From contig NC_090784.1 of NCBI RefSeq assembly GCF_040054535.1, positions 16,246,001 through 16,310,000 on the forward strand: a stretch of 64,000 nucleotides of DNA. The letters are read 5' to 3'. This DNA comes from Antennarius striatus (Eukaryota > Chordata > Actinopteri > Lophiiformes > Antennariidae). The stretch's first letter is position 1, and each line of letters starts with the position of its first letter. Below the pieces are notes generated by a model. The model made no database searches. It saw only the letters and a program-made list of their open reading frames with translations, and had not been told where the DNA came from. Positions 30,320-64,000 of the stretch are shown in pieces. The position numbers and the translations under genes are program-made.

Positions 30320-32184
30320 TTAACAATCTAGGGGTGTCCTGCCCTTTAGGATATCAGTGAACAGCCAATCAGCCTCACACAGAGGAGTTGGTATGGAACA
30401 GTGCTCATGAGCGTGAAGGGGAACAGAGAATGATTGAGCAACACCCTCAAATAGTGTGAAGTCCTGGTTGTTCCCCAGCATACAGGTACTCTCTCCCTCA
30501 GGCTGCTGGTGTGACTGCAGCTCAGACAAGTTGTAGGGGGAGCTGATCGATGTGGGCAGCTGGCTATGGATGCCCTCAGACATCCTAAAGTCTGTCTCTG
30601 CAGTGTCTTCCCTTGCACTTTGAAAGTGGTTCATGGTCGATTCCTGAACTGCGTGTGGGTATCTTTGTCCATATTCGTATCGGCAATCCCTCTCCCCGGA
30701 ATATAAATCCTCCATCTCTGAGTTAATGCTGCAGATCTTTTCTTTTAGACTTTCTGACTGATCTGCAAGTCCATGATCAGCACCAACATGACTATGGCAT
30801 TTACAGATACTTTCAAAATAAGCGTCTACATCCATGAAGGCTCCTATATCTTCATTGCCAGCATTAAAGAGATCCATGATATCTGACTCTTGCGAGAAAT
30901 CACAAGAGTCAAGGGACAATGAACAACATACTGGAGAGAGCATGGGGGAAATGTTCATATTTTGGTTGACCTGAATGAAACTACAGTCTTCTGCAGTTGT
31001 TTGAGAGTCTCCTGAGAGGCTGTTGCCAGATTTCAGCTGGCTGTTGTTGTAACACTCGGCATGAATAAGACCATCACTGTGGTGATGTGCCATCAGAGAG
31101 CTAACTGATGGGGATTCAACCAGTTTGTGATTTGGACTCACTTTTTCTTGTCCTGCATTGCGCTGGTTGTTCTTCCTAGGGGGGCAGATAGTAGGTTGGG
31201 GTTTAGGGTGTTGGTTTAAAACATGTTCTGAGTCTGACTGCTTCTTTTCCATTGACTTCGAGACCCCATCAGCTCCTATGTGAACATCGCATTTATCTTG
31301 ATCCTTGAGATAACCACCTCGGGAGGGGATATCTGACCTGACAGGAGTCTCTGGCTCTTGTGATGGCGTTGAAGAAATATTCTTCCCATCCTCCTTAATG
31401 TACAGAGCAGATGCTAGGTGTTGGTTTGCTGCTTCTATGTCCGCCAACTTCCTGTTGAGAGACAGATGAAAAAAAAACTTTAATAGTTTCCATAGATAAA
31501 CTGAATGTCCACAACCAAGCAGTAGTTCGTCATTTTTGTACAACACTTTCTTATCTGTGTGCAGTATTAAGTATAAAACTACTAGCTAGTAGCTCATTAG
31601 CTCAGCTTAACACAAAAGCTGTAGTCGGGGAGATAGTAAGCTTAGCGTTGCTCAATGGTCATAAATATGTCAACTGAAAACTCAATTTATTGTTAATGTT
31701 AAGATGCATGTTATAGTGTTGTTTCTTAGACTTGGGGGGCTTTTAATCAATTGTTATCTCCTGTTTGATGTATTTATGTGAAGGTAAACACATTGACTTG
31801 TCGTCATATTTGTGATATGAATACCAGAAATTTTTTTTAGCTCTTATTACACTTTTCAAAAAAAAACTGTATGACCTGAAACATTACCTTTCAAATAATC
31901 TTGAGTGATTTTTCTTCATGAATTTGAAGGATTTTTTTTAATACAGGATGTTGTATCACAGCAAAAAAAGACCAGCTTTAGGTATCTCCACCATACCTCT
32001 GAATCATGTTGTGCAGGAAGCGACGATGGTTGACCTGCCGTTTGGACCGGCGGTTCTTTTGAGGTTTCTGGAGAGTTCTCATCATGTGACCTGCTGCTGA
32101 TGTTACGAAGGTGTAGAGGTCATAACCCTTTGGAACGCCTTCCTCCAAACCAGGCTCAAGAGTCACAGAAAATAATGGCTGCAT
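30320..32184 (-). CDS. Unrecognised 439-aa protein with a conserved-looking basic N-terminal motif
   Basis: Two coding exons on the minus strand: 32184-31997 (ATG start, 188 nt, donor AG|GTATGG) and 31451-30320 (1132 nt, acceptor CTCAACAG, stop TAA at 30320-30322). Phase 2 joins exactly, giving 439 aa. I do not recognise the family. The first 90 residues look like a folded or helical module: acidic start, PKGYDLYTFVTSAAGHMM, then a highly basic stretch (KRQVNHRRFLHNMIQR) running through the splice into an amphipathic helix (KLADIEAANQHLASALY). The remaining ~340 residues are Ser-, Gln- and acid-rich with short hydrophobic clusters (SDIMDLFNAGNEDIGAF, CEADWLFTDILKGRTP). This layout fits a nuclear or regulatory protein with activation-like motifs, which is only an inference. 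A 5' untranslated exon may lie at about 33254-33335 (donor AAG|GTAAAA). The gene is convergent with myh14 and divergent from mpv17l. Confidence 0.75.
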
Positions 32185-48847: not shown

Positions 48848-51800
48848 AGGTTCCTTCACAAAGATAAGGAGCTCTTTGCTGAGTGTAACACCACTATGAA
48901 ACACACAAGGGGAGAGGACATACATGCAGCAATAAAAGTTGCCGATCAAGTCCAGTGGTCTTTCACCAACATTACAGAGATCACCACAAGGAGACCACCA
49001 CAAGGTGTGCACAGGCACTTGTGTACAAGTAAATTACTGGCAGACCACATGCCCCTTTCTCTCGTGAAGAAAGTTCTGTTTGCATTTTTCCCCTGAAAGA
49101 GCCAGTTTTTATTCATGCTTTCTGAACATGTTAATGTTTTTTTACTGGAAGTGTAGGCCTTCAGTTCTTTAGGCTGGGATGTCTTTAATTTACAAGAAAA
49201 AGGATTATTCAGCTCTTTTTGCACGTTATTTTTTAATTCTGAGGTTTGTGTGTTCTTCAATCTAACATAAAGGCTTAAAATGTATTTGCCTGGGTCTACT
49301 TTTATTTATGGTGAGGTAAAAGAGATAGCTGTGCACTCACTTAAACATATCCTGCATTGAAAATTGATAATAAATGATAATGTGGATATAGTGGCCGGCT
49401 ATAAGACACAAACTGGACTTGGGTAATAACTGGACCTCCGTGACTGTTAATTGAATACCCCTGCTCTAGACCAAACAACATCGCTGGTCTCACCACAGTT
49501 TTGTACACATTTCATTTTAGCTGAAACTCTTCTGTCACTCATCACACCTGACACTTTTCTCCACCCGTTCCATCCTGCCTGTACACGCTTCTTCACTTCT
49601 TTTCCACACTCCCCATTGCTCTAGACTGTTGACCCTAAGTATTTATCCTTAAGCATTATCCTGGATAATCCAAAAATATTGTCATTTCATCTCCTTTTGG
49701 GGGCGGCAGTGGCTCAGCGTAGAGCAGATGTCTCGTAGACAGATCGCCCCAGCCATCGGTGGATCGAATCCCGCTCCCGCCATGATGTCACCAGGAGTGT
49801 GAGCTGACGGTGGGAGGTGTCAGCTCACCTCCCAGTCACTGCCGAGGCGCCCTTGAGCAAGGCGCCGTCCCCCCTACAAGCTGCTCAATTGGGGCGCGTT
49901 CCAAAAGCCGCTGTCTGTCACTCTGCCTCCCAATGTGTGTAGTTTGATGTGTATGTATTAACTGCATGCTTACAGGCCCCCTTGTGTGCTGTGATCAGGG
50001 GGCCCGTGTACTGTTAAAAATACTAACCTGAGTGACTATGTAATTTCCCCTTGCGAGATCAATAAAGTCTTCTTCTTCCTTGCATCAGTGACATCCATCT
50101 GTGCCCTGCTAAAGCTCTGACTGATTTTTAGGAGTTTTTAATTTCTTAAAATTCTATTAGCTACAACCTATACACATCTTGAGTTGATGACAAGACAGTG
50201 TCTTATTAATCTGTGCTCGGCACCCCACTTTAGAAGTAAAATAATGAATTTGCATCCCCACAGACCTGTTTGTTTTTTACCACCTTAATTTGATCCTATA
50301 TTCTGAATGCTACATGTGTCCACGTGCTTGCTGCTGAATTTAAATGATTAACAGACACACTCTTGGCTGATAATGCACTGTGGTGTGAAATAGATCCTTA
50401 TGAGGTAAAATGAAAGAGACTGAAGTCCAGGATTGGACAAGACTAAAGACAGCTCATTCATGATCTCTTTGAAAAATGTGAAAAAGGTCTAGTTTGGTTT
50501 TTTTCCTTTGGAACACAACCTGTGGTCTTCAACCTATTAATGCATTCATTTCTTTTTTGTACAGAATTTTCAAGAAGTCTGCTACCTCGTCCCAGGCGAC
50601 TACTGTTATTGGTTAATCCCTTTAGTGGGAGAGGCCAAGCAATGCAATGGTGTCAGACACACATCTTGCCAATGATCAGAGAGGCCAATATTAGCTACAA
50701 CCTTATACAAACAGGTAACTCACTCAGTGCAAAGACATATGAAACAGGTGGTACTTTTATGTAAAGTATGAAATCATTGGGTTTTTATTCTTCGGTCTCA
50801 GAGCGTCAGAACCACGCTCGGGAGCTGATCAGAGAGATATCACTCAGAGAGTGGGACGGCATTATTATCGTCTCTGGAGATGGCCTGCTGCATGAGGTTG
50901 GAAAAACTTTTTTTGAAGAGCAAGGAACAATGGAATTGGAGTTGTTAGTGAAAATATTGGTGTTGTATGTTACATGAATAATTTGATCTGTATCTTATAG
51001 TATGATTTTGTCATTTTCTGTAGGTAATCAATGGGCTGATGGAGCGTTCTGATTGGGAGCAAGCAATAAAAACACCAGTTGGCATTCTGCCCTGTGGATC
51101 TGGGAATGCACTAGCTGGTTCCATCAACCACAATGCTGGGTAAAGTTTCTCTTATAAGTCCGAAAGGTGGGATTCTTGTGACTTTACTATTTTTACTTAG
51201 ACTGTTTTTCTGGCCTGTCTCCCATAGGTATGACATGTGCCTTCGGGAGCCCCTGCTTTTGAACTGCTGCTTCTTGCTCTGTCGCGGTGGTATCCGACCC
51301 ATGGATGTGGTTTCTGTGACAACAAGTCCTCCATCCAACAACAACCACGCTACAGCTCCCAGAAGACTGTTTTCTTTCCTTTCTGTTGCTTGGGGCTTTG
51401 TGTCTGATGTAGATATTGAGAGTGAAAGGTGGGTGTTGAATTGCATTTATTGTAAGAAAAGTATCATCTGTCATTGCACAAAAGGATAGCTTTGCTTGAA
51501 ACATGTCTTCTTTTCAGGTATCGGGGCCTGGGTTCAGCTCGCTTCACTCTGGGAACCCTGGTGCGCATCGCTTCTCTTCGATCCTACAAGGGTCGCCTGT
51601 CCTACCTGCCTCCATCTGTTTGCACCTCATCACCAGACGCCACGCCGCCTCCTCCAAGGAGACCTCTCTCCCGCAGCATCACAGAAGGTCTGGAGGGCTT
51701 CTGCCGAACGCCTATCCATCGCACGTGTTCCGACATGGGGATAAGCGAACAGAGGAGCTTACGTAAAGGTGAAGGAGAGAGAGAAAAGGAAGAACGGCAA

Positions 51801-53704
51801 AGGGAAAGGGAGAGAAGAAGGGAGAGAGCCAGGGGAGGAGGGACTGGAGTGGTGAGGGCAAGCAGCCTGGCAGAGGATAGAGAGAGGGAGCTGGAAGGGG
51901 AGGTGGAAATGGAGGCCGAAGAGGCAAGGTCTGGGACAAGTTCAGAATCAAATGAAAGGGATGGATGCAGCACGGGCCGGGTAGAAAGACTGGCAGGGAT
52001 AAAGGATGAAAGGGAAGATGAAGAAAGAGTGGAACATGACTCGAGTGAGATGGAGGAGGAGGAAAAGGTGAAGGATGGAGATATCACTGAAGGTTCCATT
52101 GAGGGGGAGCGAGTTTCCCATGCTGGAGAGCTGGGAGAGAGCCGTGGGGTAAACCCGGAGAGAGAAGCAGATGAAGAACCAGAGGGTGATTTCTCTTACC
52201 CAAATGGCCTTCAAGAAGGCAGACAAACACTAAGGAAGAATTCAGCCCCTTCAAGTCAGATAATGAAGACTCTTTTCAATCAGCCTCTCAGTCAGGAGGC
52301 CGACCCAGACTCTGGAACCTCATACGGCGTAGAAGACATGGATCTGAATGGAGCCTACTTCCAGAAAGAACCCTACCAGTTAGATGTGTCCCGTGAGCGA
52401 TCTCTAACCATTTCCTCTCCGTTTCGCCACTCTCCTTTTTCTCACAAGCCCAAGACCTTGGACCAAAACCAGAACGCTTCCCGGCCGAGGCCCCTCTCCC
52501 TTCTTCAGCACTCCCACTCCAACTCTCTGCCTCCCAAACTCCCGTCCCTCTCCCTGTCTCTCTCTCCCACACCCCCATCGTCGCCATCGTGTGCTTCCCC
52601 ACACTCCTCATCTTTTCTTGTCCCGCGTCCGAACACTCCAAATTCCACCTCGCCTTCACCCTCTCTTCGCACACAATCCTCATCTTTTAACTTTGACCTC
52701 ACTGAGCCAGCGGGACCCCAGAAGAGCTGTCTTTACCCACTGCCTTTAAATATCCCGAAGGATGACTTGTTGCCCCCACTGGACCAACCCCTTCCCACCA
52801 GAGACTGGGTGACAATTGAAGGAGACTTTGTCCTGGTCCTGGCCCTTTATCAGACCCACCTCGGGGCTGACCTTCATGCTGCACCCCAGGCCAAGTTTGA
52901 TGATGGGCTGATCCACCTGACCTTTGTTCGGGCTGGGATTTCAAGAGCCACTCTGCTGAGACTGTTCTTTGCCATGGAAAGAGGAACCCACCACTCCGTC
53001 ACCTCGCCGTTTGTGAGCCATGTGACCTGCAGGGCCTTCAGGCTGCAGCCTCTGTCCACAAGGGGAACACTCACCGTGGATGGAGAGTTGGTGCCTTATG
53101 GGCCCCTTCAAGCACAGGTCAGAAAGAGGAAATATAACATGAGTCTGTCAAAACTTATCACGAAATGTCACAGTTGGATTGATGGGTTGGCTAGATCTTC
53201 CCATAAATAAAGCACACCTATATGTAACTGTAATATGCATTACAAGGTGTTAGTATTTAGGCTTTGTTCCACCATAATCTTTGTTTACAAATTTAATTCA
53301 AAACTGTTGAATTGTCAGGTCATTTTAACATATTTCCTGCAGTCATAGTAATGATAATATTATGCAGTCAGGTCTAGTCTATGTCCTAGAGAGAAAACTG
53401 TATACAATATAGTGTAGCTGTGATGGCAAAAGCAGGTCAGTCTGTTCAGTCGATTGCTTGACATTCACATTATTGACAGACATGATTTTTATTTAACAAC
53501 TAGTTCAAAGGTGAATAATATGGTTTTGGTATATGTACATTACGCTTTTGCAGCATTAAGTCTGATTACTGTGGCATTAGATTTGATCATTAGTGTGTGA
53601 CGTGCCATTGGTAATATTTTCCCCCTATGTGTCTGTCTCAGGTTCATCCTTCCATGGCTCGTCTCATCGTTGGAGATTCTGGAGTCAAGATTACCAGATT
53701 CTAA
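46886..53704 (+). CDS. sphk2: Sphingosine kinase 2
   Basis: Phosphorylates sphingosine to sphingosine-1-phosphate; mammalian SPHK2 acts in nucleus, mitochondria and ER. Seven coding exons: 46886-47345, 50565-50714, 50802-50896, 51024-51139, 51228-51428, 51518-53117, 53642-53704 (2685 nt, 894 aa). I chose the ATG at 46886 because it starts the Ser/Pro-rich leader before the SPHK2-specific HIQRL and YWYPPGKRRKG region. Diacylglycerol-kinase-type catalytic motifs: LLLLVNPFSGRG (about 166-177), VSGDGLLHEV with catalytic Asp (about 230), GILPCGSGNALAG (about 255-267), SFLSVAWGFVSDVDIESERYR, and C-terminal DWVTIEGDFVLVLA and MERGTHHSV. Between about residues 385 and 765, encoded in the 1.6-kb exon 6, is a long low-complexity insert: Arg/Glu-rich, then acidic, then Ser/Pro-rich. 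Human SPHK2 also has a Pro-rich insert here, but shorter. The donor after 50896 (GAG|GTTGGA) is weak. Confidence 0.95.
47970..49463 (+). mobile_element. hAT DNA transposon, internally deleted, with 8-bp target duplication
   Basis: A 1494-bp element bounded by perfect 8-bp direct repeats CTCTAGAC (47962-47969 and 49464-49471). Ends are CAGGGGTTACC and ATACCCCTG, a short 7-bp inverted repeat (CAGGGGT). The plus-strand frame 48422-49096 resembles a GTF2IRD2/FAM200-like hAT transposase: KRRYETRHRSFCPEL, LKAWWSLGQHKTSFSDG and FGGKQKDEMCGK. It lacks most of the catalytic region and is interrupted by a 90-bp GT tract, so it is non-functional. Confidence 0.88.
48757..48846. repeat. (GT)n microsatellite inside the hAT transposase remnant
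   Basis: A 90-bp pure GT run inside the transposase frame. It reads as a Cys-Val run and happens to keep the frame open. Confidence 0.97.
49699..50075 (+). mobile_element. tRNA-derived SINE
   Basis: The head carries a tRNA-like A box (TGGCTCAGCGTAGAGCAG from 49710) and B box (GGATCGAATCC), then a body with TGCCGAGGCGCCCTTGAGC, a sequence widespread in teleost SINEs. It ends in a LINE-like tail GATCAATAAAGTCTTCTTC. It is not a functional tRNA: the A box lacks a base and there is no proper anticodon stem or 3' half. Confidence 0.75.
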
Positions 53705-57737: not shown

Positions 57738-60700
57738 ATGGATGATTTGGACTACAGTAAGTAGACTTACTAATTAGCTGTTTACATAGGCTATCGCTAG
57801 CTAGGTGGCTAGTTGTAGCTAGGGGCTCAGTTTTGTTTTTTATTTGGTCAGGTGTGACACACTGATTCACTCCATTGAATACCTAATTGATAATCATCAT
57901 AAACCATTTACCCACTTCTCCGAATATTGAACGTGTACACGCACAGAACTTAAAAGCGCTCTAAATATATTTCGCTTAACCTGGAGCAAACCAAATACTG
58001 AATTCATTTTCACTGTGTGCTCTTAGCTAACGTCTATGCTAGCTCACCTCAATACGTATTAAACACCCCAACCAGCCTCCAAGTGACAGAAGGGCTTATT
58101 GAAATAAATTATTTGGAAACACTGCGTCTGTAGTAAATATGGCTTCCGTATTGGGAGATAAAGTGTGGTCGCTAACCCAGACGGGGCGTGGTTGATGGTG
58201 TTTTAGAGCTGCTGTTTGTTTTGCAGAGTAACCACGTTGACTTCTTTCAAGTCCTCCATTCCTCTAAACTGAACTGGCTGGATTTCTTGGTGGATTTTGT
58301 GCCGCAGCAATAATTTGTTGTGTTTCTTTCTTCAGCCAAGTTCAGGCTGAAATAAATGTCACATAAATATCACAGTGTCTCGTTGGTTTATTTGGAGACT
58401 TCCGGGTCTTCCGACATCTAAATTGTATGAAGTGAATAAGGGACTTGTCTTGAAGTTATCTAACAGTTATAATCTAAATCTAAATCTATGTCTAAATCTA
58501 TGGTGAATATGGCTTACTGTAAACCAGCTTTCGGTCATTCTTAGTTACGATGCAACACATTAAAAATAATTCACTGTAGCTGAAACCTTAGAGAGGATAT
58601 CTGATAAAACAGAAACTAAATGCTCAGCTCAGTACAACTATTCCAACGATAGAGCTTTATATTTATCACACTTTAGTGTAACCTGCATGCTCTACCAACT
58701 ATGAATTGGTACTGGAACCAAATCCAGATGTTTCTCAGGGAGAGTTCTACTGATAAAATCAAGCTGTCTCACTCGGACAGTAGTTCTGTATATTTAGGGG
58801 CCTTTTAGGTCCATAAACGTCTGTCTTGCTCAATTTTTAAGAATCCATAAATGAGCATTATTAATTCTTCTTTATATGATAATCTAGATGTGACCTGCCT
58901 AAATGATTATCATCAAATAGCACATAATCAAGTGCTTTGAAAGGATGTAGTCATGACGAATGATGCAGTTAACACTGCTATCCACACTGCCTTTTCAGAA
59001 TGCTGTTTATAGACTTTATAACACTGCATTTAACACTGTTATCCCCCACAAACTCACAGACAAGCTCCTTTCACTTGGACTGACACCCTCCCTCTGTAAC
59101 TGGGTGCTGAACTTTCTAACAAGCAGGCCCCAGTCAGTCAGAGTCCACTGCTGCACACCCAGCTCAAGAACTAAGCACTGGGACCCCAAGTCTTTGCACC
59201 TACATCAGCGAGGACCTCACCGGGTCTCACAATACCTCAAATCACCAAGAAATTATTCTTCCTGAGGAGACTGAGAAAGTTTCACATTTCAACCAAAACC
59301 GTCAGCTTATTCTGCAGATGCCCTATATAGACTGTCATTATTGCCTCTGTCACGGTCTGGTAGGGAAAAAAGGCAGGAAGGCACTCCAGTGCTGGGGCGG
59401 CCTTCCCCTCACTGCGACACGCTTACAAAACCCGAGTCCTACGTAGAACACACAACCTCATCAGAGACCGCACACTCTCTTCACACTACTACCATCAGGC
59501 AGACGCTACGGGTGGTGGAAATCCAGGACCACAAGGATGGCAAACAGTTTCTACCCACAGGCCATCACACACATATTCATAACACTATACTTTTTATTGC
59601 TGCTGTTAATCGTTTATTTATTGTTACTTTATTACAATGTTCTTTTTAATTTTTAATGTCATGTTCTTAGGGCGAATGAAAAGAATAAAAGTTTCATTGC
59701 ATAGCATAACTGCCTGTTTGCTGTCCATGTGACAATAAAACTCTTGAATCTAGAGGCAGTTTATTGTAAGGATTTCGCAGCAATTGCTCGTGTAGTGTGG
59801 AATAAGATGATATTAATAAGTAGGATGCAGATGCAGAAATAGGGCTTTGCATCGTTATTAATTTGACCTCTGGTTATTTGGACACAGTTAGATATTATAT
59901 CTGCAACAACAGCAGTACAGTTAATCTACTTCTCTGCCTTACAGTCCCAGTAGACCTGAGCCCAGAGGAGCGCTCAGAGCTAGAGGACATCCGCAGGAGG
60001 AAGGGCATCCTGATGCAGGAGATCCAGAGGCTCAGAGAGGAATTACGAGAGGCAATTTTGGAGGTGGAAGGACTGGAGACAAGCACAGAGGGCAGGTAAA
60101 GCAAATAAATTAATATTCAGCTTAATGTTGTTAACATAATATATTAATAATTTTGATTCTTTGATAAAATGCCTGCTTTAGAATTTGAGGTCTAATAATT
60201 ATGTTGCTATACTTTTGAACATATAGTTTTATTTTATAGCTTTGGTTTTGTTTTTCCACAATTTTGGTAGTAAAATTCATAGCATGATAACAATCAGTGA
60301 TTTTGAATTTTTTAATTTGAGCTAATGCCTTTACAATTTGAAATTAGATATGTTAAAAAAAAGGAATCAAATTTAAATTATAAAAAAGTAATTTTCTTAC
60401 AATTTTCAATCCCTCAAGCAAAACTTTACAGAAAAGCAGACATGTGGCAATGGGCAGGAAAAAATTCAACATGGACCCTAAAAAGGTATGAATCTTAAAT
60501 GTTTTTGTGTGTCTGCATCATCTTCCTTATTTCTTAGTTTTATGGTATTACTTTGGCTCTTTAAAGGGTATCGTGTTTCTGGTGGAGAATGAGCTGCTCA
60601 GACACACTTCAGAAGACATTGCTCAGTTCTTATACAAAGGAGAGGGCCTCAACAAAACTGCTATAGGAGACTATCTGGGAGAAAGGTGCTCAATCTCAAA

Positions 60701-63700
60701 ATATATTGTATTCTTTTTCTCTGATGTCAGACATGTGTAATCCTGTCCTCTCTTGTTTTTCTCTAGGGATGACTTTAACATCAAAGTTCTTCAGGCCTTC
60801 GTTGACCTCCATGAGTTTACTGATCTCAACCTCGTTCAGGCCCTCAGGTGAGATGTCATTTTGGGGTGAATACTGTTTTAAATCGAGGACAAACAGTCAT
60901 TGAGAAGTTATCAAGGAAATCAGTAGAGACTTTATAGTTTTACCTTCATTTGCTGAATTTAACCTCTTTGCCCTGATTTGAATCTTGTCCTGTTTTTTTA
61001 CAGACAGTTCCTTTGGAGTTTCCGTTTGCCTGGTGAAGCCCAGAAGATTGACAGGATGATGGAGGCTTTTGCTCAGAGATACTGCCACTGTAACCCTGGC
61101 GTCTTCCAGAGCACTGGTGAACAAAACCTCACCATTATGCAGCATTTCATTCAGCGGTTTAGCTTACCTTCTTCTCTGTGTAATTGGGAGATGTTGTTTT
61201 CAAATCAAACTTTATTTTCCTGCAGTGGGTCACAGCAAGGGACATTTCCCAGGTGTAAAATACTGTAATGTAAATTGTGGGCCCCTTTAGAGGAAATGGT
61301 CTGGTGTGTGATATCTGCACTCTGATATCTGTGTTCTTGAATGTAGATTTTATAGTTTATTGTTGATATTAAGAAAGAGACAGATATTGAGAACAGGAAT
61401 CAGTGTTGCTGCATTAACCTGCATGTCTCTCCTGTTTTCAGACACATGTTATGTGCTGTCATTTGCCATAATTATGCTGAACACAAGCCTCCATAACCCA
61501 AATGTGAGAGATAAACCTGGTGTGGACCGTTTCATCTCTATGAACCGAGGCATCAACGAAGGGGGAGACCTCCCTGAAGAGCTGCTCAGAGTAGGATGAG
61601 TTCTACTGCTCTTTGGTTATGGATAAGTGACTGTTAAGATGCACATTGTAAATGGATTTTTGTTTTAATCTGATATGCTTTTCCAGAATCTGTATGAAAG
61701 TATTAAAAATGAGCCCTTCAAGATCCCTGAGGATGATGGTAATGACCTGACACACACATTCTTCAACCCTGACAGAGAGGGCTGGCTTCTTAAACTTGGT
61801 GAGTTGTTGCCACTGGTACCCTTTTGCTTTATTGTGAAGTATTTATACCCTACATAGAAGCCGTAATCCTGATGTTGCACAACTAAATTCAAATATTTCA
61901 TTGTATTGGACAAGAATCCAAGGTTTCTTATTATAAACTGTGACGGGTGCTGTCTGCTGTGGAACTCTTTAAAGCTTTGCGCTGTAACAAACCTGCTGAT
62001 CTGTCTCTGAGGTTTGCTGGCTCTGCCTTCACTTGACATGTTGGCTCACAATGTTGTGGCTTTTGAACATTGCCATAACATTAAATGAGATTCACTTTCT
62101 TGCGTCATGTCAGCAGGAATCTGATTGTGTTCTTTTGCATGGTGGGGCTGTGATTTCTATGCCACTAATAACATCTCTCTCTTTCTCCCCCCACCCCGCT
62201 GCCTCACATTTTTTGTCCACTTTTTTCTTTAAATCTTTGGGTTGCTTTTGTCTATGCTTCTTCATTGTGGTTTCTACCCTCTGCTGCTGCTGTTTGTTTT
62301 CTCAGGAGGTATGTACTGACAGAGTTTTTGTAGTTATAAAGTTCTATGTAGAAGAATTACTATATAGTTAGCTACTAGAATGTGAAGATCATGTAGTAGT
62401 ATCCCCTTTAGTTTTGAACCCAATCTTATTATTTACCTCACACTCTTCAAGAATTGTTTTTTATTTGTTTCAGGGGGGCGAGTTAAAACCTGGAAGCGCC
62501 GATGGTTTATCCTCACAGATAACTGCCTTTATTACTTTGAATACACTACAGTAAGTGCTAATTTGACAGTGTCACTCCAATATTTATGTAGCTTAGACTT
62601 TAAAACATGGAGTTGCTTAATTTAATTAATACAACGTATGCAACAGGAAATTATTAACTACAAAGTATGCATGAACAAGAATTGTCATACTCGACACAAC
62701 TTATTTTTTTTCTCCTTTTTAATTTTTTTTTTTAATTTTTAGAGTGAGAGAGAGAAAGATAGAGAGACAGAGCTTGCGTGTGTGTGTGCGCTATGTAACA
62801 GTTAAAATATCTATACAGTATATAAATCATTAATTTGAACTGAAGTTAGAAAGTGTCAAACTAAGAGCAGAGATTCTCCATTACATCCATCTATGTCAGT
62901 GGTCCCCAACTACCGGGTCGCGACCTGGTAGCTGGTCGCGGGACATTAGGTACCGGGGGGCACAGAAGGTTTTACTTTTTTTTTTTTTTATTGTTTACCA
63001 GTCTAAAGATGTTTTATTTTGATAAGTGACGTCTGTGCGGAATGATGCACAGACAAATGCATGCGCCTGTCCTCCTTGACAGGTCTCGGTCACGTGACAT
63101 GTTACCCCTAAATTAAGCGCTCACTACTGCGCCGGTGTTCTGGATTAGAGTCAAGGCAGATTATCCTGAGATCGCCCAAATAGTATCGTAAACCCTGCTT
63201 CCAACCACCTGTCTTTGTAAAGCAGGATTTTCTGCGGTGACCGTAAACAAAACCAAACTGCAAAGTAGACTGGACGTCCGAAACACACTTCAGGTGTCAT
63301 TGTCTCTCGTTACCCCTAGGTCAGCGGTCCCCAACCACTAAATCTCATTATTGTAATTATTATTATTTGATTGACTTATTCACTCTTTTATTGGAAATGA
63401 TCAGTATTTCTCCTACGTTGAATTCACTGATTGTAAGTCACTATATTTCAAAATAAACCTCATCATTGCCGTCACTTGAACCGAGTTTTTAATATCATTA
63501 TGTCTTACAATTGTTTTGTTTACAGAGATGTTGATTATCAATCTATAAAAAAAGGTTGTTTATTGTCTGTTGATGTCTGCATTTACACAAAACCACTGCG
63601 GATGATTTATTATTAGACTACAGCTGTCCTGGCATCAATAACGATTATCGAGCAAATGAAGGCCGGTCCGTGATACGTCAAAGAATAATGTGGAGATGTT

Positions 63701-64000
63701 TTAATTTGAAAAGTGTTGTATTCTGAAATAAAAAACTTTCTGAAAGTATTTTAATGTTTTATTATGAAAAGACCAGGTATTGTGGTCATGCATTGACTAC
63801 AGTACTTTTGTTGAGAGGGAAAAAACAATTACCCGTACAATTTTGCTCTATTTTTAACAGTCAGAACTATTTCAGAGATGGGATGCATTTCTGTTCATGA
63901 ATTCACACAAAAATTCCGACTAGGATGTAAAGAGCTTGTATTTGTAGAAACCTTTTTGCTCTAATGTTTAAATTCCTTTCCTTCTGACAGGATAAGGAAC
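57738..64000 (+). CDS. cyth2: Cytohesin-2 (ARNO), Arf guanine-nucleotide exchange factor; 3' part beyond the window
   Basis: Catalyses GDP/GTP exchange on Arf GTPases at phosphoinositide-rich membranes. Exons: 57738-57756, 59945-60095, 60419-60485, 60567-60685, 60767-60847, 61004-61116, 61442-61590, 61687-61798, optional 62306-62308, 62474-62550, and 63991 onward (cut by the window edge). Phases all join. Order of parts: short N-terminus ([15 protein letters not shown]), coiled coil ([19 protein letters not shown]), Sec7 domain from [13 protein letters not shown] through the catalytic glutamate loop [18 protein letters not shown] and motif 2 [17 protein letters not shown], linker [14 protein letters not shown], then the PH domain beginning [14 protein letters not shown] and [20 protein letters not shown]. 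Exon 3 uses acceptor CCCTCAAG, giving [13 protein letters not shown], which matches CYTH2 (SKTLQ) rather than CYTH1 or CYTH3; linkage to rpl18 and sphk2 supports this. Missing from the window: most of the PH domain and the polybasic tail. Confidence 0.95.
58930..59760 (+). mobile_element. L2/Rex1-like LINE 3' fragment in cyth2 intron 1
   Basis: The plus strand reads [34 protein letters not shown] and SRPQSVRVH, the RT region of fish L2/Rex1 elements, then jumps by deletion to the FLRRLRKF-type C-terminus in other frames. It ends with a tail (GTGACAATAAAACTCTTGAATC near 59730-59751). It is frameshifted and internally deleted, so inactive. Confidence 0.75.
62306..62308 (+). other. cyth2: 3-nt GAG microexon of cyth2 (two-glycine/three-glycine switch)
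   Basis: A CTG-repeat and pyrimidine-rich tract ends in TTTTCTCAG, followed by GAG and a donor GTATGT. The upstream exon ends CTT G (61798) and the downstream exon starts GG GGG CGA (62474). Skipping gives Leu-Gly-Gly-Arg; inclusion gives Leu-Gly-Gly-Gly-Arg. Mammalian cytohesins are known to have exactly this GAG microexon in the PH domain. The 2G form prefers PtdIns(3,4,5)P3, and the 3G form also binds PtdIns(4,5)P2. Confidence 0.85.
62897..63690. mobile_element. hAT relic in cyth2 intron 9, related to the rpl18-intron copy
   Basis: It starts CAGTGGTCCCCAAC, as in the 40664-41155 element, and shares internal blocks with it (63091-63205 against about 40838-40945; 63555-63680 against 40976-41101). 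It is longer and keeps a short frame [18 protein letters not shown] (around 63240-63290), typical of the C-terminus of hAT transposases. A second head-like CAGCGGTCCCCAACC occurs at 63322. No right inverted repeat or target duplication was found, so the end is approximate. Confidence 0.7.

Follow-up and report, generated by a model that had tools for sequence, protein, structure and literature searches.

Gene Content of the Window

The window is a 64,000-nt stretch of the Antennarius striatus genome (C9:16246001-16310000). The following regions were noted in it:

about 8.8-25.5 kb, + strand: exons of a non-muscle/smooth-muscle type myosin II heavy chain
30320-31585, - strand: stop-to-stop open frame, 421 aa
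35821-36237, + strand: ORF of 138 aa
37373-37882, + strand: reverse transcriptase fragment, a retroelement remnant
50447-53210, + strand: sphingosine kinase gene, probably sphk2
last 7 kb, + strand: cytohesin gene, from exon 1 to the opening bases of exon 10

In the myosin II region, Myosin_head matches were found in three ORFs with coiled-coil ORFs following them, and a 66-aa piece of the motor was nearest to myosin-10 chains, myosin-14 being more distant. The 421-aa frame had no match in Pfam or NCBIfam. The 138-aa ORF, which we take to resemble an MPV17-family protein, had no Pfam match at E 0.01, and the reverse transcriptase fragment was recognized by RVT_1 (E 1.9e-14). The sphingosine kinase gene, located upstream of the cytohesin gene, matched YegS_C (E 2e-10), SPHK1 chains (E 3e-26) and, under the Pfam cut-off, a fragment of DAGK_cat. 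Ahead of its C-terminal domain it has an extended Ser/Pro-rich region, a feature typical of SPHK2. Rfam families and tRNAs were not found in the window.

Structure and Identity of the Cytohesin Gene

The cytohesin gene was reconstructed as follows:

57738..57756, + strand: exon 1, predicted coding part (MDDLDY), from the reading frame and a GT donor
59945..60095, + strand: exon 2 (coiled coil)
60419..60485, + strand: exon 3
60567..60685, + strand: exon 4 (Sec7)
60767..60847, + strand: exon 5 (Sec7)
61004..61116, + strand: exon 6 (Sec7)
61442..61590, + strand: exon 7 (Sec7)
61687..61798, + strand: exon 8, holding the start of the PH domain and ending LLKL G/
62306..62308, + strand: GAG, candidate 3-nt microexon adding one glycine if included (2G to 3G)
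62474..62550, + strand: exon 9, beginning /GG GGG CGA GTT
63991..64000, + strand: start of exon 10 (DKE...), truncated by the window end

Exons 2 to 9 are 151, 67, 119, 81, 113, 149, 112, and 77 nt long, the introns are GT-AG throughout, and beyond the window further exons follow in the adjoining 3 kb of contig. The translation in the window matched the Pfam families Sec7 (E 5.3e-76) and PH (E 8.1e-9), and the nearest solved chains were cytohesins. Intron 9 contains the stretch GTCAGYGGTCCCCAACYAC in two direct copies (62891-62913 and 63316-63338, + strand) with a palindrome after the first, which are presumably transposon ends.

The residues at both termini and the adjacent sphk2-like gene identify the gene as cyth2, and the name given to it in the earlier note was upheld by diagnostic columns, terminal exons, and summed bits. 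Against human sequences, 23 alignment columns matched exactly one of CYTH1-3, namely CYTH2 in 15, CYTH3 in 5, and CYTH1 in 3, and the whole translation was identical to CYTH2 at 258 positions, to CYTH1 at 250, and to CYTH3 at 246. The summed tblastn bits were 680, 640, and 632 for CYTH2, CYTH1, and CYTH3, respectively. The last exons, located past the window, were 92% and 86% like CYTH2 versus 81% and 58% like CYTH3, the second value of each pair applying to the end AARKKRISLKKKEEQP. Taken by itself, the Sec7 part fails to separate the paralogs (372.2 bits for cytohesin-1 vs. 371.2 for ARNO). Exon 8 taken alone suggested cyth3, being identical to cytohesin-3 at 37 of 37 positions; this assignment was overruled by the two termini and the neighbourhood. 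In human, SPHK2 and CYTH2 both map to 19q13.33.

Position, Phase, and Predicted Products of the GAG Site

Intron 8 of cyth2 is a phase 1 intron of 675 nt, running from the end of exon 8 at 61798 (AACTTG/gtgagt) to the start of exon 9 at 62474 (tttcag/GGGGGC). Positions 62300-62316 read tctcag/GAG/gtatgtac, that is, CAG/GAG/GTATGT with GAG at 62306-62308, which splits the intron into 507 nt upstream and 165 nt downstream. Exon 8 ends with LLKL and the first base of a glycine codon, and exon 9 supplies the last two bases of this codon and a second glycine codon. Direct joining of exon 8 to exon 9 yields LLKLGGRVKTW (2G), and inclusion of GAG yields LLKLGGGRVKTW (3G), GG becoming GGG with the rest of the protein unchanged. 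The earlier note had described AG-GAG-GT at 62306..62308, between an exon 8-9 junction at 61798/62474 whose phases give GG on skipping and GGG on inclusion; the bases and both boundaries were exactly as claimed, and the two products were confirmed on translated joins.

Single junctions between donors at 61760-61860 and acceptors at 62400-62490 were enumerated. Two glycines arose only from the junction 61798/62474, and three glycines from none; an alternative acceptor or donor was therefore rejected as a route to 3G, and there is no NAGNAG shortcut in these ranges. The 3G peptide aligned without gaps to solved 3G PH domains (41/41 for 1u2b and 40/41 for 1u27 and 1u29), whereas a one-residue gap was required against 2G chains. 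Searched against viral and prokaryote collections, the PH peptide had no relative. RNA structure near the site was ordinary (z -0.49).

Splice Scores and Chance Occurrence

Considered on these data, GAG is very probably a 3-nt cassette microexon in the PH-coding part of teleost cyth2, giving 2G and 3G products. The opposite reading is that the site is a chance look-alike, unused in this fish, and that cyth2 makes 2G only. Two splice matrices were applied: a general Shapiro-Senapathy type matrix, and a small one trained on this gene's own splice sites (9 donors, 9 acceptors). With the general matrix, the acceptor scored 7.29 and the donor 4.68, well inside the range of the other exons of the gene and jointly strong, which argues against a look-alike. 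By the same matrix, the site had the highest sum of the 514 AG-N3-GT sites that the two strands of the window contain (270 on + and 244 on -), the runner-up reaching 7.37, and no AG-N3-GT as good occurred in 5000 dinucleotide shuffles of the intron. Under a different background, 1 of 1000 shuffled introns matched the score and none of 1000 did so with a glycine-giving GNG. Two results are in favour of a look-alike: the bare motif AGGNGGT is common, being present in 252 of 5000 shuffled introns, and the own-intron matrix placed the site low, only sixth among the 514 window sites and third among the 70 candidate exons 1-30 nt long that the intron offers.

Distribution of the GAG Site among Cytohesin Paralogs

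The 548-Mb genome was searched for paralogs; the exon 8 query gave seven places, at six of which exon 9 was also located. Names were given from the summed tblastn bits, with CYTH1-3 as the only references, and cyth4-like is the presumed identity of two genes that diverged from all three. The intron following exon 8 had the following features:

cyth2, window locus: CAG/GAG/GTATGT in a 675-nt intron
cyth1, C16:13.67 Mb: CAG/GAG/GTATGT in a 3689-nt intron, best of 21 AG-N3-GT sites, 0 of 1000 shuffles
cyth1, C21:15.06 Mb: CAG/GAG/GTACGT in a 504-nt intron, 1 of 1000 shuffles
cyth3, C21:7.23 Mb: TAG/GAG/GTAGGT 1002 nt past exon 8, weak acceptor, best of 8
cyth3, C16:12.18 Mb: no GAG site in a 2644-nt intron with 8 AG-N3-GT sites, 0 with GNG
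cyth4-like, C8:1.32 Mb and C16:1.83 Mb: diverged from CYTH1-3, no GAG site in introns of 128 and 75 nt

Thus, the site follows exon 8 in four of the seven cytohesin genes, and the comparison with cyth1 and cyth3, to which the earlier note had pointed, revealed the same GAG site in both cyth1 copies and in one of the two cyth3 copies. Such sharing would be difficult to account for if the exon were not genuine and inherited. For the C21 cyth3 site, 8 of 500 shuffles were as good and 1 of 500 with GNG; the intron of this gene was read in part only, owing to a run of exactly 5,000 N that starts 2683 nt past exon 8, and neither the following 22 kb nor a genome search yielded its exon 9 or any later exon. 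The introns of the second cyth3 and of both cyth4-like genes, where the GAG site is absent, were read whole and contain no N. In the C16 cyth3 intron, the closest candidate, TTACAG/GGG/GCTTGT, was discounted as a 3G exon, as it would require a poor GC donor.

Two further observations concern the genes lacking the site. In the C16 cyth3 gene (C16:12173931-12176574, - strand), the donor of exon 8 is unusual, reading GTTTGTGT. In both cyth4-like genes, exon 9 starts with GAGGT, resembling the microexon and its donor; the microexon might thus have originated as a duplicate of the exon 9 start, but a match of five letters is no proof.

The pattern [CT]AGGAGGTA.GT had four matches on the gene strand of the seven cytohesin loci, every one after exon 8, and none on the opposite strand (165,306 bases, 5,000 of them N). 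Across the 548 Mb of the genome, YAGGAGGTAYGTAC had 9 matches, of which cytohesin introns accounted for 3. The reversed pattern, used as a control, occurred at 32 places; since it is commoner than the motif, there is no enrichment of the motif as such, and the argument rests on position. Nor does flank similarity lend support, because the resemblance among the four sites does not extend past the splice signals (at most 10 of the last 20 intron bases alike). As to a chance look-alike, three paralogs do manage without a GAG site, but the site recurs in three paralogous introns and its pattern is found nowhere else in the 165,306 bases on both strands, so that this reading is considered highly improbable.

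The paralogs also bear on a zero-length or recursive splice site (CAGGAG/GTATGT), in which the upstream part of the intron would be removed first and the regenerated donor respliced, all mRNA being 2G. Such a site would account for the AG at 62307-62308 immediately followed by a good donor, and the definition of a 3-nt exon in one step would be difficult. However, the stronger acceptor is the CAG at 62303-62305, directly after the pyrimidine tract, and all four sites retain the first G, which the glycine codon requires, though a donor prefers C or A there. Moreover, stepwise removal is unnecessary for an intron of 675 nt, and GAG is retained in mammalian cytohesins 1-3 (PMC9104363). A recursive site is accordingly regarded as very unlikely, and the cassette microexon is the reading retained below.

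Upstream Motifs

Two motifs were noted in the intron upstream of GAG:

62174..62189, + strand: UC-repeat/polypyrimidine stretch with CTCTCT at 62175 and 62177, a possible PTBP1/SRRM4-type context
62282..62292, + strand: TGCTGCTGCTG, with UGC three times between -24 and -14 relative to the microexon acceptor, a possible Srrm3/4 site

These motifs raise the possibility, compatible with a cassette microexon, that Srrm3/4 raises inclusion of the cyth2 GAG in neurons through the acceptor-proximal UGC repeats. Three UGC at -24 to -14 together with a UC repeat form the canonical layout of Srrm4-controlled zebrafish microexons (PMC12626420), and TGCTGCTGCTG occurs once per strand in the window. On the other side, UGC was present in the last 30 intron bases at none of the three paralogous GAG sites, a single UGC precedes 3 of the 9 ordinary acceptors of the window cyth2, and no paper pairing 'cytohesin' with 'srrm4' was found in the literature surveyed. 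In mammals, cyth2 3G makes up about 60% in non-neural myoblasts, A7r5, and HEK293T (PMC12894763), which suggests broad inclusion. Because UGC is absent from the paralogs and mammalian 3G occurs in non-neural lines, neural control of the cyth2 GAG is at best possible, and its operation through Srrm3/4 is considered unlikely. None of the four GAG sites is followed by TGCATG in the 200 nt downstream.

Proposed Age and Fate of the Exon

That fish cyth1, cyth2, and cyth3 all have the site suggests that the exon is older than the duplication of these genes, and one gain followed by later losses is probably the simplest history. Repeated gain would be less simple, as it would need the same three letters in the same phase each time. 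The earlier note had proposed that the exon has been kept since the bony-vertebrate ancestor; the age appears to have been understated, since sharing among cyth1, cyth2, and cyth3 would place the exon earlier. In Drosophila, a di-glycine motif was described for Steppke (PMC4640550).

Judging from the distribution of the site, some cytohesin paralogs look fixed as 2G. A more detailed scenario can be put forward only tentatively, and we hold it to be somewhat doubtful: an exon older than cyth1/2/3 would have been lost from some duplicates, the loss of three bases specialising them; the C21 cyth3 would keep a weak exon and could make both forms, and the C16 cyth3 and the cyth4-like genes would be fixed as PIP3-preferring 2G.

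Proposed Switch and Lipid Preference

If GAG is used by the spliceosome in fish, as we infer, removal of both flanking introns (507 and 165 nt) would keep it and give Gly-Gly-Gly in the beta1/beta2 loop of the PH domain, and splicing of exon 8 straight to exon 9 would give Gly-Gly. Three bases are presumably too few for U1 and U2AF at once, so the two introns would be removed in turn, the upstream one first. The glycine count would then steer the Arf activator to signalling-dependent or constitutive membrane sites, provided that the mammalian lipid preference carries over to fish by analogy.

Ogasawara 2000 reportedly treats the 3 bp of cytohesin-1 and -4 as an exon 9 of their own, and this work, Klarlund 2000, Cronin 2004, and Ratcliffe 2019 are reportedly those cited for mammalian cytohesin 2G/3G. 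The 2G and 3G forms of mammalian cytohesins 1-3 differ by the GAG insertion (PMC9104363). The extra glycine lies in the beta1/beta2 loop, and 2G favours PI(3,4,5)P3, whereas 3G favours PI(4,5)P2 (PMC10586773; PMC12894763); alternatively, 3G binds both lipids with a reduced affinity for PIP3 (PMC6823287).

Since the GAG 2G/3G switch of mammalian cytohesins 1-3 has already been published and is textbook knowledge, the fish result is an annotation and a dating point and not a new mechanism. The novel part is the distribution over seven fish paralogs, four with the GAG site and three without. No description of a cytohesin microexon in fish was found in the literature surveyed; zebrafish microexon tables in supplements (e.g., of PMC7821500) may well list it. 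A 3-nt exon is among the smallest possible, and aligners and annotation readily overlook it; even so, it would set a lipid preference. Its occurrence in four fish paralogs would date the exon before the cytohesin duplications and indicate which duplicates can still switch, and the paralog set enables a simple test of splicing-based specialisation.

Comparison with Known Systems

The TLN1 microexon is likewise 3 nt long and conserved in mammals (PMC4317164), although its gene and function are unrelated to cytohesin. Microexons controlled by SRRM3/4, PTBP1, or RBFOX share with the cyth2 site a tiny in-frame cassette, a long pyrimidine tract, and UGC repeats (PMC12626420); the UGC layout of the cyth2 site is not common to the paralogous sites. 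The closest counterpart is the switch of mammalian CYTH1, CYTH2/ARNO, and CYTH3/GRP1, with the same place in the PH domain, the same GAG, and the same GG/GGG (PMC9104363; PMC10586773; PMC12894763), and the likeness asserted in the earlier note holds for gene family, the GAG itself, and the GG versus GGG outcome. The fish case differs from the mammalian one in being a candidate read from genomic DNA and in comprising seven paralogs, of which four carry the site and three do not.
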